A stretch of 46,369 nucleotides of DNA, taken from a virus. A program made the translations under genes and the position numbers. How positions within the stretch are numbered: position 1 is the stretch's first letter; each line of letters opens with the position of its first letter. Under the pieces are notes generated by a model. That model had not been told where the DNA came from, ran no database searches, and worked only from the letters and a program-made list of their open reading frames with translations. Below, in pieces: positions 2,796 through 34,474 of the stretch. The stretch spans positions 1 to 46,369 of IMG/VR virus record IMGVR_UViG_3300006802_000157; one strand, given 5' to 3'.

Positions 2796-3287
2796 ATGTT
2801 ATATGCAAAAATCGTTGATGACGAAGTTATTGAATGGCCATTAAACACAGATGATATCAAAAAGGCCCATCCGAATATAGCATTTGGACCTGATCCTTCT
2901 GAGTGGGAAATGGAAGAACTTGGTTATACACCTATTCCTACATTAGACACAGAAGAAGTGCCTAAGTCAGATAAAGATAACGAGGTTAATCTCGGTGATC
3001 TAGAAAAAGATGCAGATGGTAATTGGATACGTACATATATTGTAACACCAGTTACAGATGAAGCTAGAAAAATGCAAAGGCTTGATCGTCAATGGGCTTC
3101 TATGCGTAAGCATCGTGATAACTTATTTTCTGAAACAGATTGGAGAGTTCTTCGCAATCTCCGAGAAGTTACACTTGGACTAACGCCTTCTGAAGATATT
3201 GAAATTCTAGAACAATACCGACAAGATCTTGCAAATATTACTGATCAAGAAGATCCGTTTAATATTGCTTGGCCTGAAAAAGTTTAA
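2796..3287 (+). CDS. Tail-fibre assembly chaperone-like protein (paralogue A)
   Basis: This 163-residue protein has the same length as its paralogue at 5172. Both begin ML-x-AKI-xx-DE-x-IEWP and end in ANITDQEDPFNIAWP or SNITDQEDPFNIKWP. The C-terminal half, with RDNLFSETDWRVLRNLRE and a spaced YRQDLANI, resembles the phage tail-assembly chaperone domain (Phage_tail_APC type), in which an 'ETDW ... YR..L..I' pattern is usual. It likely helps fold or trimerise a fibre encoded nearby. GGAG precedes the ATG, and a late promoter lies at 2753. Confidence 0.65.
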   Translation: MLYAKIVDDEVIEWPLNTDDIKKAHPNIAFGPDPSEWEMEELGYTPIPTLDTEEVPKSDKDNEVNLGDLEKDADGNWIRTYIVTPVTDEARKMQRLDRQWASMRKHRDNLFSETDWRVLRNLREVTLGLTPSEDIEILEQYRQDLANITDQEDPFNIAWPEKV

Positions 3288-3303
3288 CTAAAAGGATAAA
3301 CAC

Positions 3304-3618
3304 ATGGCAATTGAATACACTTGGAAAATAGCAAGCTTAGAGTGTGCTCCAACTGAAGATGGAAACACTAACGTTGTAAAGACTGTGCACTGGCGCTGTG
3401 AAGCTACTGATGGCGAACACGCAGCTTCATCTTATGGCTCATGCGGTTTAGACGCAGTCACTGGTGATTTTATTGAATTTGCAGAGTTAACTGAAGCTGA
3501 CGTTTTAGCTTGGTGTTATGCAGCTAATGTAAATCAAGAAGATACCGAAGCGGCTCTTGCAGCTCAAATCGATGCGTTAGCTAATCCTACTCGAGTTTCA
3601 CCAGAATTACCTTGGTAA
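3304..3618 (+). CDS. Small conserved phage protein, MAIEYTW family (paralogue B)
   Basis: This 104-residue protein starts MAIEYTWKIASLECAPTE and is the second member of the family with the gene at 2198, sharing FAELTE-xx-VLAW and the C-terminal ELPW. It lies 16 bp after the chaperone-like gene with a good AAGGA site. Function is unknown; repeated association with tail chaperones suggests a role in fibre assembly. Confidence 0.6.
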   Translation: MAIEYTWKIASLECAPTEDGNTNVVKTVHWRCEATDGEHAASSYGSCGLDAVTGDFIEFAELTEADVLAWCYAANVNQEDTEAALAAQIDALANPTRVSPELPW

Positions 3619-3626
3619 TATAAATA
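3619..3626 (+). promoter_or_regulatory. Late promoter box (TATAAATA)
   Basis: Exact late consensus directly after the stop of the 3304 gene and 32 bp before the ATG at 3659. It likely drives 3659 to about 6908, where a strong terminator follows. Confidence 0.75.
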
Positions 3627-3658
3627 AACATATTAGCTAATAGTTCAGGAGAACGAAG

Positions 3659-4060
3659 ATGGCTGTAAAAGTATCGGGCACTACTGTTATTGACGACAGT
3701 AAAAATATGCTCACTGATGGTTATGTAAGAGCCGCAACGTATAAAGGCAAAACTCAAACCATTGCTACAGGCTCAGGTTCAAAAAGCGTAAATTTATCTA
3801 TAGGTGATAATGTCATAATGACATTAAACGGTAATACTACCTTTACTATTACAAATCTTCTTTCTAGCTATGTAAATACTGTAACGTTTAAGCTCACATA
3901 TTCAGGTGGAGCTTATTCTGTTACTTGGCCAACTGGAACTACATGGCATCGTAGTGTTACACCAACAAGCTTTTCTGGTGGAACAGCAATTTATGTATTA
4001 GAAACCTACGATAACGGAACTTCCTGGCATGGAATTGAAGTTTGGCGTAGCTGGTCTTAA
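3659..4060 (+). CDS. Small tail/fibre structural protein
   Basis: This 133-residue protein begins MAVKVSGTTVIDDSKNML, a leader common in fibre and structural proteins of marine myophages, followed by a beta-rich Thr/Ser/Gly body with Trp-containing strands near the end. There is a strong AGGAG site and a late promoter 32 bp upstream. It precedes the Trp/Cys repeat protein by only 2 nt, suggesting the two are made together. Domain-level function is not recognised. Confidence 0.55.
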   Translation: MAVKVSGTTVIDDSKNMLTDGYVRAATYKGKTQTIATGSGSKSVNLSIGDNVIMTLNGNTTFTITNLLSSYVNTVTFKLTYSGGAYSVTWPTGTTWHRSVTPTSFSGGTAIYVLETYDNGTSWHGIEVWRSWS

Positions 4061-4062
4061 TA

Positions 4063-5169
4063 ATGAGTAGACGAATAAGAGCTTCTGGGGCTTTTCAAAC
4101 CACATGGACTACGTCGTGGACGACGTCATGGGATACAAGCTGGTCAACGGCTTGGGATAGCTCTTATACGACAAATTGGAATACTTCGTGGGATACTTCA
4201 TGGGAGACAAACTGCCATAATACAAGTAGAAGCACGGCAGGTAATTATGTTACCTCTTGGACTACATCATGGGTTTCAGGAACTACAAATACCTCATGTA
4301 TTGATTCTAGAACAACCTCTCAAGTTACAATTGGGTTTCATAACACTTCTTATTTAAGTTGTGATACTACGTGTTGGCCAACCAATATTATAGTACCAGT
4401 CCAAACGTGCGATACTACGTGTTGGCCAACTGCAGTTGTTGTTACTGTCCAAACGTGTGATACTACGTGTAGGGATACTAATTGCCATAATACTAGTAGC
4501 ACGGTTCAAGCTTCACGACAAACAGAAGTATATACATCATTTTCAACACTTGTTGATTATTTAGAGCGCTGTGCTTTTGAGCCTGATAGTTTTGTAGATT
4601 GGGATACTGTAAACTGTTTGGCATATTGTGGAACTGCTTACCAAAATTCACAATGTGATGCTGTTGAGGGTCCAAATGGTGGATATCTGTGTTGTTACTA
4701 TTATAGAAATACAACTGGACTAGTAACATCGTATACTACGTATTGGAATACAACTACTACTGTCCAAACATGTGATGTAACCTGTTTTCCAACTAATTGT
4801 CATAATACTAATGTAGATACAACACGAGTAACGTGTTGGGATACAAATTGCCATAATACAGATTACATTACAACGCGAGAAACATGCAGGGATACAAATT
4901 GCGGATTTGTAAACACAATGGTATATGGTCCTTATGTAACAGAATGGAATACTTCATGGTATACTATTTGTGTTACAGATAATGTAGAATCTAGGGTTAC
5001 TGATAGAGTAACAAACGGGTTTTATGTGACTTCATGGACAACATGTGATATCACATCTAGAGCTACGAATATAGATACATCGCAGCAAACATTTATTAAT
5101 ACTTCTATATCAACGAATATATCAACTGATCGATTAACAAGTCAATCAACAAGTCAGTTTACAGGATAG
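4063..5169 (+). CDS. Trp/Cys/Thr-rich tetrapeptide-repeat protein, putative adhesin
   Basis: This 368-residue protein is built largely from tandem four-residue units of the form x-T-[ST/N]-[W/C/Y/F/R], for example TTSW, DTSW, NTSW, DTTC and DTNC. A Trp-dominated first block (residues 12-75) is followed by Cys-dominated blocks, a central non-repetitive domain (about 150-225) and further repeats to the end, which become DTS/NTS/TNI. It has about two dozen cysteines and no signal peptide or membrane segment. Regular placement of a large residue every fourth position suggests a narrow beta-solenoid or fibrous fold, but this is inference. Location among tail-fibre chaperones suggests a receptor-binding or fibre-tip component. 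No strong ribosome site is visible, so translation is probably coupled to the preceding gene. Low-complexity look-alikes may exist in other phages. Confidence 0.7.
   Translation: MSRRIRASGAFQTTWTTSWTTSWDTSWSTAWDSSYTTNWNTSWDTSWETNCHNTSRSTAGNYVTSWTTSWVSGTTNTSCIDSRTTSQVTIGFHNTSYLSCDTTCWPTNIIVPVQTCDTTCWPTAVVVTVQTCDTTCRDTNCHNTSSTVQASRQTEVYTSFSTLVDYLERCAFEPDSFVDWDTVNCLAYCGTAYQNSQCDAVEGPNGGYLCCYYYRNTTGLVTSYTTYWNTTTTVQTCDVTCFPTNCHNTNVDTTRVTCWDTNCHNTDYITTRETCRDTNCGFVNTMVYGPYVTEWNTSWYTICVTDNVESRVTDRVTNGFYVTSWTTCDITSRATNIDTSQQTFINTSISTNISTDRLTSQSTSQFTG
4363..4506 (+). repeat. Three 48-bp (16-residue) in-gene tandem repeats
   Basis: GATACTACGTGT recurs at 4363, 4411 and 4459, exactly 48 bp apart. The first two copies continue TGGCCAAC and the second and third are preceded by GTCCAAACGTG. 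The encoded unit is DTTC-W/R-x-T followed by a Val-rich stretch and QTC. These recent duplications inside the repeat protein show that it evolves by unit gain and loss. Confidence 0.85.
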
Positions 5170-5171
5170 TT

Positions 5172-5663
5172 ATGTTATTTGCAAAGATAGAAAATGATGA
5201 AATAATTGAATGGCCAATTAATTCTGCAAAATTATGTAGAGATCATAGCATATCGGCTGGTGATAATGACAGCTTATTACAAGCTGCTGCTGAATTAGGC
5301 TACGTTTATATTAGTAGTGATACGCTGACTCCTCCGCCAAAACAAGATATGAATAATAGACTTGCTTTAGGTCCATTAGAAAAAAGCCCAGAGGGTAAAT
5401 GGTATCGAACATATGTTTTAGAAGAATTAACAATCGGTTCTCCATCATATCTTGATCGATTAAATTTTCAGTGGGGTATTATAAGAGCTGAAAGAGAAAA
5501 ACGTTTTAAAGAATATGAATGGCGTGTTTTCCGAAATCTTCGTGAAAAAACTTTAGGTTTACAAGAAACAGATAATATTACCGAGTTAGAAGAATATAGG
5601 AAAAATCTGAGTAATATAACTGATCAAGAAGATCCGTTTAATATTAAATGGCCTATATTATAG
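5172..5663 (+). CDS. Tail-fibre assembly chaperone-like protein (paralogue B)
   Basis: This 163-residue protein is the second copy of the family at 2796, with the same start pattern (MLFAKIENDEIIEWP), a central segment GPLEKSPEGKWYRTYVLEE comparable to GDLEKDADGNWIRTYIV, and an almost identical C-terminus NITDQEDPFNIKWP. AGGA precedes the start, which lies 2 nt after the repeat protein stop. Each chaperone-like copy sits beside a different putative fibre gene, so this one probably serves the tetrapeptide-repeat protein. Confidence 0.65.
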   Translation: MLFAKIENDEIIEWPINSAKLCRDHSISAGDNDSLLQAAAELGYVYISSDTLTPPPKQDMNNRLALGPLEKSPEGKWYRTYVLEELTIGSPSYLDRLNFQWGIIRAEREKRFKEYEWRVFRNLREKTLGLQETDNITELEEYRKNLSNITDQEDPFNIKWPIL

Positions 5664-5672
5664 AGGTATACA

Positions 5673-5897
5673 ATGGCAGAAGAAAATGATATAATAGCTA
5701 CTAGTAGAAGTTCTGTTGTAGCAAAAAGGATTGAGATTTGTAAGTCTTGTCCTGAATTAACTAAAATAAAAACATGTTCTCAATGCGGATGTTTTATGCC
5801 TGCAAAAGTACGCATGATGCGTTCATCTTGTCCGTTAGGTAAATGGAAAAGGCATGAAGTATATGAAAATATACCGGAAAAACACCTGAATAAATAA
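5673..5897 (+). CDS. Small four-cysteine zinc-binding protein (DUF6171-like)
   Basis: This 74-residue protein contains CKSC, then CSQCGC about 10 residues later, then CPLGKW, giving a probable zinc ribbon. The pattern CxxCP...CxxCGCFM..K......CP..KW is found in small proteins of T4-like phages near tail and structural genes. Its biochemical role is unknown. AGAGG precedes the start, and it lies 9 bp after the chaperone-like gene in the same transcript. Confidence 0.65.
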   Translation: MAEENDIIATSRSSVVAKRIEICKSCPELTKIKTCSQCGCFMPAKVRMMRSSCPLGKWKRHEVYENIPEKHLNK

Positions 5898-5930
5898 AAT
5901 ATTATTAACTATATTATTGGAAATTATAAT

Positions 5931-6908
5931 ATGAGATTTTCGAATGAATTGATGTCTGATCCAAACGTTCAAAAAAATAAAATTAATACCTTAAAACGCT
6001 CTGATAGAAACTCTTGGGCAGAGAGAATAGAAATACCTATTCGAAAGATATGCCCATATCCTATTAGTTATGATGTAACGTGTAATCAACCAACCAATTT
6101 TACAGAATTTACATACACTGAAATTGCCGGTGGAATGTATCTTCAAACCCATTCAATCGACATCAATACAAGAATCATGCAATTAGCTTCAGAAGAAGAA
6201 TCTGATGATGATTCTACACATGATAAATTAAAATCACTTATCAAAGATAAGTATGTATTAAAAGGTGAGATTCCAAACAAGTTTAAAAATATTAAAAAAG
6301 TTATTTTTATGCCTGGAAGTAATCTTCTCCCAATTGCAAGTTCAGATATTGTTTCAAGAATTTGTGGTGAAGATGAAGAGATAATGGTTAAACCACACCC
6401 TTTAACAAATGATGAATTTTCTAAGATGATTTCATCTAATTGTGGTGGATGGAATAGAATAATTTCTCCTGACTTATCTGGTTTATACTTTTTGCAAAAT
6501 GCCGAAAAGATTTATGTAACAACGTGTTCAGAAATGGCTACACTTGCAATTATATTAGGCAAGGAAATAGAAAACATTAGCGCATATAAATTCGAATCAA
6601 CTGGTGTGTATTATCCAGTTTCGCGTATTTTATTTTCAGCTAAAGATCCTTTAAAAAAATTAATTAACATGGTTAATTGTAAATGGTCAGGGCTCTTATT
6701 TCCATGGCAAACAGATTATATTGAACGAGCTCAGGCGTTTTATGATAAATCTATAGAATTAAAAAAAATATATCGGCCATTGCATGGACCTATTAATTTC
6801 CCACATTCACCGCCTAGAGACACAAGGCCGAAAAACGCAGAACAAAATAAGAAAGAACAGCATCCTAATGCACCTCCATTTAATAAAAAAATAGAATATA
6901 AAACTTAA
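5931..6908 (+). CDS. Putative glycosyltransferase-like protein
   Basis: This 325-residue protein shows no signal peptide. Residues about 150-220 carry an EEIMVKPHPLT motif and then AEKIYVTTCSEMATLAIILG. A KPHP motif followed by a 'detected at S/T ... E-x-A...GK' loop is characteristic of the C-terminal Rossmann half of GT-B polysaccharide or teichoic-type transferases. The N-terminal half is not recognised and the C-terminus is a Pro/Lys/Asn-rich tail. It may modify a surface or virion component. Homology is weakly supported, so the assignment is tentative. It closes the fibre transcript and is followed by a terminator. Confidence 0.4.
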   Translation: MRFSNELMSDPNVQKNKINTLKRSDRNSWAERIEIPIRKICPYPISYDVTCNQPTNFTEFTYTEIAGGMYLQTHSIDINTRIMQLASEEESDDDSTHDKLKSLIKDKYVLKGEIPNKFKNIKKVIFMPGSNLLPIASSDIVSRICGEDEEIMVKPHPLTNDEFSKMISSNCGGWNRIISPDLSGLYFLQNAEKIYVTTCSEMATLAIILGKEIENISAYKFESTGVYYPVSRILFSAKDPLKKLINMVNCKWSGLLFPWQTDYIERAQAFYDKSIELKKIYRPLHGPINFPHSPPRDTRPKNAEQNKKEQHPNAPPFNKKIEYKT

Positions 6909-6912
6909 ATAA

Positions 6913-6934
6913 AAGGGCCGAAAGGCCCTTTTTT
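6913..6934 (+). terminator. Intrinsic terminator after fibre region
   Basis: A perfect 7-bp stem AAGGGCC / GGCCCTT closed by a GAAA tetraloop is followed by a run of T. It ends the transcript that includes 3659-6908 and precedes two tandem late promoters. Confidence 0.9.
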
Positions 6935-6948
6935 GTTTCCGCAGAACA

Positions 6949-6956
6949 TATAAATA
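6949..6956 (+). promoter_or_regulatory. Late promoter box 1 of the virion module
   Basis: Exact TATAAATA 15 bp downstream of the terminator and 75 bp before the ATG at 7024. Confidence 0.65.
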
Positions 6957-6991
6957 GTTAGGTAATAGTACTATTTTAATTTTTTATTTAT

Positions 6992-6999
6992 TATAAATA
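6992..6999 (+). promoter_or_regulatory. Late promoter box 2 of the virion module
   Basis: A second exact TATAAATA, 43 bp after the first and 24 bp before the ATG at 7024. The tandem pair would drive the long operon to gp17. Confidence 0.7.
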
Positions 7000-7023
7000 A
7001 TAGAAAACACGTAGGATTTATCT

Positions 7024-33585: not shown

Positions 33586-33601
33586 TTTTTGTGTGTATAT
33601 T

Positions 33602-34474
33602 ATGAGACTTGGATTATTAGCAATATTTCGTAATGAAGCTCATATTCTTGATGAGTTCATTTCTTTTTATAAACTTCAAGGTATTGATCATTTTTATTTA
33701 ATTAATAATGCATCAGAAGACGACTATCTTCCTATTATAGAGAAACATTCTAAATATGTTACGCTCTATCATGATAATTATGTTGAAAGCACTACTTATC
33801 TAGATAAAGGTGGTCCGCAACTTCCTGCGTATAACCGTGTACTTAAAGAAGTAAAAACTGATTGGTTATATGTTTGTGATTTAGATGAGTTTGCTTATAT
33901 TAGAAATAATTCCGAATTTAAAAATATAAAAGATTTTATTGTAAAAACTTCTGAATCTTATGATCAGGTTCTTATACCTCTTAGAATATTTAATTCAGGC
34001 GGAAATATAGAACAGCCTTCAAGTGTTGTACGCGGATTCTTACAAGGACAAGAATTAGTATGTAATCATCAATGCTTGACAAAACCGATTGCAAGAACTG
34101 CATTAATAGACTCTATTCGGATTAATTATTGTATTATGAAAGATATGTCTATTACTGCAAATAGTTCCCTTGAATCTTTTTCGTACCTTTTTAATGCTTC
34201 GTATGCTCCTAGGGGGTCAGAAGCAGCTATAACTTTTTTTAGAACGGTTTTTGATTGGAGTAGACCACATGTAGTATCAAATCATTATGTAGTGCAAAGC
34301 TATGAATGGTTTTGGAGCGTAAAAGCTAAGAGAGGAACAGCTACATGGCATGGAGGTCCTTCACAAGAAGCTTCTGAATGGTTCTCGTGGGTATGGGATC
34401 GATATGATGGATTAAATATGGTATATGATGATGAGGTAATAAGCGTTTTACAAAAGCTTGAAAACAGTGTATAA
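33602..34474 (+). CDS. Glycosyltransferase (GT92/DUF23-like, GT-A fold)
   Basis: This 290-residue protein starts at ATG 33602 (a GTG at 33593 is possible). It shows FRNEAHILDEFISFYKLQGI, INNASEDD, DLDEFAY as the DxD metal site, and HYVVQSYEWFWSVKAKRG near the C-terminus, the pattern of the Glyco_tranf_2_4/GT92 group. It would transfer a sugar from a nucleotide-sugar to an unknown acceptor (host surface or virion). No signal peptide or membrane segment. It lies between the tRNA and gp44, interrupting the replisome genes, so it is probably a later insertion. Confidence 0.75.
   Translation: MRLGLLAIFRNEAHILDEFISFYKLQGIDHFYLINNASEDDYLPIIEKHSKYVTLYHDNYVESTTYLDKGGPQLPAYNRVLKEVKTDWLYVCDLDEFAYIRNNSEFKNIKDFIVKTSESYDQVLIPLRIFNSGGNIEQPSSVVRGFLQGQELVCNHQCLTKPIARTALIDSIRINYCIMKDMSITANSSLESFSYLFNASYAPRGSEAAITFFRTVFDWSRPHVVSNHYVVQSYEWFWSVKAKRGTATWHGGPSQEASEWFSWVWDRYDGLNMVYDDEVISVLQKLENSV

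Follow-up and report, generated by a model that had tools for sequence, protein, structure and literature searches.

Gp38, the adhesin of T-even phages, is a repetitive, glycine-rich host-range protein that is encoded directly downstream of the fibre gene and is not known to have a transferase partner. Gram-positive serine-rich repeat adhesins have dedicated glycosyltransferases. These adhesins include PsrP and Srr2 (PMC10269691, PMC11193222). In the mycobacteriophages Che8, Corndog and Myrna, virion proteins are glycosylated by the phages' own glycosyltransferases (Freeman et al. 2023, as described in PMC12363180 and PMC10955285), the acceptors named in these descriptions being capsid and tail-tube proteins.

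The viral DNA analysed here (IMG/VR record IMGVR_UViG_3300006802_000157, 46,369 nucleotides, hereafter the window) encodes a 368-residue threonine-periodic repeat protein at positions 4063-5169. A gene for a putative GT-B glycosyltransferase of 325 residues with an HP motif (phrog_26179), hereafter the partner, starts 761 bases downstream of it (5931-6908; both on the + strand). The partner is the strongest clue to the locus and was absent from the earlier note on this DNA. As proposed here, the system resembles that of the mycobacteriophages in that a phage-encoded transferase would act on the phage's own particle proteins, and differs from it, as far as the cited descriptions go, in that the acceptor would be a dedicated threonine-repeat protein beside the enzyme. 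The resemblance to the serine-rich adhesins lies in a long Ser/Thr-rich repeat protein, proposed to be a surface protein, beside its own putative transferase. It differs from them in the phage origin of the genes, the threonine-based period of four and the HP-motif GT-B-like enzyme, and no sign of an accessory Sec system was found among the neighbouring genes. Two relatives (L152 and L184) match the NCBIfam model NF033849 ("serine-rich protein"), far under its cut-off, and the window protein does not. Like gp38 the protein is repetitive and encoded directly behind a fibre gene; unlike gp38 it has only 13 glycines and a transferase-like partner, and no sequence relation was found in the PHROG search. 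No account of a threonine-repeat/transferase pairing was found in the literature searched on tetrapeptide repeats and glycosylated fibres, which lay mostly outside subscription journals. The pairing is thus new in that literature, while the principle of phage self-glycosylation is already known.

The reading frame fills 4063-5169 exactly, in the position given by the earlier note, and 2 bases separate it upstream from the stop of the small fibre gene and downstream from a chaperone-like gene. Its product contains 86 Thr (23%), 39 Ser, 24 Cys, 18 Trp, 13 Gly and no Lys. Threonine pairs at a distance of four residues number 45, compared with a maximum of 35 across 20,000 shuffles, and pairs at a distance of two number just 4, below every one of the shuffles. 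All four threonine codons are in use, which indicates that the pattern is kept at the protein level and is not merely young DNA slippage. The earlier description of a protein made mainly of x-T-S/T/N units holds loosely: the recurrence of threonine every four residues is strong, but strict x-T-[STN]-x runs of at least two units cover 76 of the 368 residues. The protein starts with a basic non-repeat N-terminus, MSRRIRASGAF (4063-4095), which resembles MSRRLWLGTPKG, MTVSRRLRIGGK and others in relatives. A Trp-rich tetrapeptide block follows (residues 12-51, 4096-4215; pattern match at 4105-4155, chance expectation 0), and the N-terminal tryptophans are W15-W47, W66 and W70. Two Cys-rich repeat blocks (4351-4500 and 4762-4908) stand around a central Cys-rich non-repeat domain (residues about 155-220, 4525-4722), which was recognised by alignment with relatives; all these elements are on the + strand. 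The claimed succession of Trp and then Cys blocks around a non-repeat centre, with about 24 cysteines, was therefore accurate. C185, C210 and C211 of the central domain match relatives in the alignment, the central Cys cluster aligns across ten sequences, and comparable domains are present in L213, L215, L217 and L220. Three recent 48-bp duplications had also been reported. We find instead one 48-bp array in the first Cys block (2.2 copies, neighbours 77% identical) and one 51-bp array in the second (2.1 copies, 75%). Both are above codon-shuffled controls, which reach at most 65%, and at such neighbour identities the duplications are not recent.

The repeat protein gave no usable match in Pfam, PHROGs, NCBIfam or PDB sequence searches, with nothing below E 0.05 in PHROGs and nothing at E up to 1 in NCBIfam, the serine-rich model included. 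A tblastn search of the phage collection was blank, probably because of low-complexity masking; the central domain found no match in the same collection, nor did the protein's own peptides in a scan of viral contigs. An AlphaFold2 monomer model, built on a shallow alignment of 10 sequences, has a pLDDT of 39.8 and a pTM of 0.30 and consists at this low confidence of strands alone, with no helices. The narrow solenoid envisaged from the sequence finds no support in this model.

Since homology search was blank, W-x-T-x-W runs were sought in viral contigs by means of DNA patterns, and the matches were then sorted by protein composition. Most matches of the first pattern were dropped at this step as low-complexity or wrong-frame reading frames. 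The search of metagenomic phages for the repeat, as the earlier note had proposed, was productive: by the repeat pattern alone, threonine-periodic proteins were found on at least 11 viral contigs. They range from about 200 to nearly 1,300 residues, the fourth position being filled by W, Q, R, F, Y, K or V, and the same threonine period is present in most of the 23 such proteins analysed. Relatives have a short basic N-terminus in common, and in other members the repeat comes after domains, such as SGAISLNDLRG in KVP40, which we take to resemble common phage structural-protein domains, although they have no family match. None of the 120 matches listed in a repeat-pattern scan of bacterial and archaeal genomes was a convincing repeat gene. 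These proteins form a previously undescribed family of Thr-rich phage proteins, encoded mostly beside tail-fibre genes.

Two arrangements were observed in addition. In some contigs the repeat lies between a short N-terminal domain and a glycine-rich or other C-terminal domain (L166:7656-8489, L146:5952-7145), which suggests that it is a swappable module. Giant repeat proteins (L152:3017-6652, L157:6-3362, L134:1-1161 and L360:3300-4403) carry a C-terminal Hint/intein-like self-processing domain (CIVEGT...HN; an intein C-terminal model matches weakly in L152) and have another repeat gene immediately downstream.

The pairing of the repeat protein with the partner is well established by counts from both directions, which for IMG/VR represent samples and lower bounds, with some contigs derived from related samples and hence non-independent. 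In a profile search the partner was present in 10 of the 11 contigs found by the repeat, in one copy each, adjoining the repeat gene or one gene off; the eleventh contig ends inside the repeat gene. The partner was present in none of 49 records that were returned by the same DNA patterns but lack a threonine-periodic protein. Starting instead from the partner sequence, four scans yielded at least 47 contigs, three of which were left out as they start too near the partner and lack the upstream DNA. A Thr-rich repeat reading frame lies within about 1.1 kb of the partner in 43 of the 44 evaluable contigs, and a comparable Thr-rich stretch occurs in 134 of 4029 background reading frames of 100 residues or more; the metric for such frames was set after the first examples had been seen, but neither the control of 49 records nor the search that began from the partner depends on it. 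A true exception is the isolate Stenotrophomonas phage DLP_6, in which no repeat protein adjoins the partner, and Cr30 is a borderline case with merely a degenerate Thr/Tyr-rich frame of 116 residues at the repeat position beside the partner. At the genome ends of DLP_6, upstream of the partner, a very large unannotated open frame (L198:3-1652, L372:9861-12488) was observed in the place that the repeat protein occupies in other phages.

The commonest order in the window's own clade is fibre end, repeat, chaperone, partner, and in some contigs repeat genes flank the partner on both sides. Among cultured phages the pair is found as gp41-gp42 of Lullwater and gp046-gp047 of BL198 (both Caulobacter) and as KVP40.0254-0256 (Vibrio), all of which are annotated as hypothetical proteins, and also in Vibrio phages D479 and D527. 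Autographiviridae, Straboviridae and T4-like myoviruses are among the carriers, whose partner sequences diverge down to 21-25% identity; recent common descent thus fails to explain the linkage.

Across 21 partner sequences 11 residues are invariant, including K154, H156 and P157 of a K-x-H-P motif and E201. The family gives weak matches to Glyco_transf_52 (E 5e-4), Capsule_synth (E 0.0016) and polysialyltransferase (E 0.022). The whole family misses the Pfam cut-off of Capsule_synth, its best member reaching E 0.0016, and the window protein itself does not match Capsule_synth even at E up to 5. KpsC accounts for the best four of five PDB sequence matches of the partner profile, and these cover the HP motif and the Ser region after it. 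An AlphaFold2 model of the partner (pLDDT 87, pTM 0.81) has mostly GT-B enzymes as its best solved neighbours; in order, these neighbours are the Kdo transferase KrkA, UDP-GlcNAc 2-epimerases, other GT-B transferases and KpsC. As TM-scores to PDB entries are low (0.2-0.4 overall; KrkA E 4e-4 and TM about 0.3; KpsC TM 0.40), the enzyme class rests on the motif and the weak profile matches. The closest viral models are those of a 321-residue viral protein (TM 0.80) and a protein of Vibrio phage VH1_2019 (TM 0.64). The HP motif and a weak similarity of sequence and fold are common to the partner, the Kdo transferases KpsC and KrkA, the GT52 sialyltransferases and the polysialyltransferases, from all of which the partner differs by the lack of detectable full-length similarity, TM-scores of 0.4 or less and its location within the fibre operon of a phage. 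At the sequence level, the catalytic Asp of KpsC was placed through PDB entry titles (D160) and the position of the HP motif; the corresponding stretch, about 35 residues before the motif, reads V-x-x-PGSN in the partner family, with no equivalent Asp visible. From sequence and predicted fold, the partner is probably a glycosyltransferase of a new GT-B-like family, and judged by its motif the donor would most likely be a CMP-sugar.

The surrounding genes are in line with a role in the tail. The window carries T4-like structural genes, and in its large terminase it shares 68% identity with Phage C48C1 (Kyanoviridae) and about 47% with cyanophages. The gene upstream of the repeat (3659-4060, + strand) encodes a small tail-fibre protein (PHROG tail-fibre families, E 9e-10), whose C-terminal domain also stands at the end of the fibre gene that precedes the repeat gene in relatives; in L184 and L020 the fibre end is 34% identical to it. 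Downstream of the repeat is a tail-fibre assembly chaperone-like gene of the Phage_tail_APC type (5172-5663, + strand; PHROG tail-fibre E 1e-8, PHROG assembly E 2e-6, Pfam E 4e-4 and under the cut-off), followed by a gene for a small four-Cys DUF6171 protein (5673-5897, + strand; PF19668 E 4e-6, above the cut-off). The latter gene adjoins the partner in at least five related contigs (L213, L216, L217, L220 and L222), and its product may be a further component of the module. No Rfam RNA was found in window positions 3000-7000. The location behind fibre ends, the chaperone neighbour and the shared basic N-terminus point to attachment of the repeat protein to the fibre. Among close relatives it also diverges faster than partner, chaperone or fibre and shows large indels (L226 and L229: repeat 52%, chaperone 68%, fibre 71% and partner 90% identity), as expected for a receptor-facing protein. 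The host-binding tip suggested in the earlier note draws support of this contextual kind, namely from the fibre and chaperone neighbours, virion-type N-terminal domains in relatives and the fast divergence; the protein is probably tail-fibre-associated and receptor-facing.

We propose that the two genes form a module in which the repeat protein is the half at the phage surface. The protein's arms with threonine at every fourth residue around a Cys-rich core would form an accessory tail-fibre or adhesin protein, and the GT-B-like HP-motif partner would add sugars, probably from a CMP-activated donor, to the repeated Thr/Ser residues in the cytoplasm, ahead of assembly. The product would be a glycoprotein of mucin-like character, serving either in host binding or as a shield over part of the virion. 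With a threonine-periodic protein and a transferase-like protein in near-obligate pairing, the simplest account is that the enzyme modifies the threonines, and virion glycosylation in mycobacteriophages and the transferases of serine-rich adhesins give the principle precedent. For the mechanism as a whole we estimate a probability of about 0.52. It is weakened by the partner of DLP_6 without a repeat neighbour and the short degenerate frame of Cr30, by the low TM-scores and the unmatched KpsC-type Asp, and by the pair in KVP40, which lies away from annotated fibre genes. The threonine richness on its own would, moreover, also suit an unmodified beta-rich fibre.

Such a fibre is the basis of a purely structural reading, in which an oligomeric fibre is built of long beta strands of alternating threonines and bulky residues, and the partner targets another virion protein. 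The low-confidence model with its strands and lack of helices agrees with this, as does the observation, made by inspection of L102 and L103, that in several members a shift of the period from 4 to 6 leaves threonines and bulky residues on the same side; at homologous positions, the residue can be W, Q, R, F, Y or C. However, proline-rich variants such as TPTPTAYTSY (L217) are a poor fit to uniform strands, the pLDDT of the monomer is only 39.8, and the tight transferase link is left unaccounted for. We consider this reading unlikely. Hardly more probable, if ranked slightly ahead of it, is that the repeat is unmodified and that the partner acts on host surface sugars, giving receptor masking or exclusion, and is carried together with a sugar-recognising receptor-binding protein. 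The HP-motif enzymes related to KpsC, GT52 and polysialyltransferases do act on cell-surface polysaccharides, and phage-encoded modification of the host O-antigen is well known (PMC11990801). Yet this would leave unexplained why a threonine-periodic neighbour accompanies the partner in 43 of 44 contigs while fibre types vary. Several carriers, moreover, come from the KVP40 and Lullwater groups, which are known as virulent and in which surface modification would be less useful. The lesser use to virulent phages has been argued for O-antigen phages (PMC11990801).

The cysteines could in principle give the fibre a tip that binds metal or is staked by disulphides. The 24 Cys of the window protein are matched by 24 in L222, and the aligned central cluster in ten sequences would agree with such a tip, but several partner-bearing relatives (L152b, L157b, L234, Lullwater, BL198 and KVP40) have no Cys at all. 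Cysteine is thus a feature of this lineage and its core and does not define the family; the metal-binding fibre put forward earlier was set aside as a general explanation, and we regard a Cys-based tip as improbable. Even less credence is due to functionless low-complexity drift or a chance open frame, for which the low complexity and lack of family matches might speak. The operon-like 2-base spacing on both sides, the use of all Thr codons and a Thr spacing beyond every shuffle stand against it, and it is contradicted by the conservation of partner and gene order across phage groups.

To extend two-gene glycosylation beyond this locus is more tentative, and we hold it to be somewhat short of an even chance that many unrelated tailed phages have a mucin-like system, in which a fast-evolving Thr-repeat virion protein is combined with an O-glycosyltransferase of its own, whose donor is perhaps a CMP-activated acidic sugar, to give the tail a sugar brush or lectin ligand that serves host binding or the evasion of defences. 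If this is so, protein O-glycosylation by a dedicated enzyme would be widespread in phage tail biology, beyond a peculiarity of mycobacteriophages, and would occur in the tractable phages KVP40, Lullwater and BL198. Two uncharacterised gene families would gain a testable function, and a class of low-complexity proteins that similarity searches miss would be explained. Few genes of the cluster change as fast as that of the repeat protein, so that this also bears on the evolution of host range.

Elsewhere in the window there is another glycosyltransferase-like gene at 33593-34474, judged GT92-like by eye (MRLGLLAIFRNEAHILDEFISFYKLQGIDHFYLINN) and distant from the module. Nearer to it, a DUF7936 gene is present in two copies (2198-2539 and 3304-3618), as is the tail chaperone-like gene (2796-3287 and 5172-5663), which suggests duplicated fibre cassettes.
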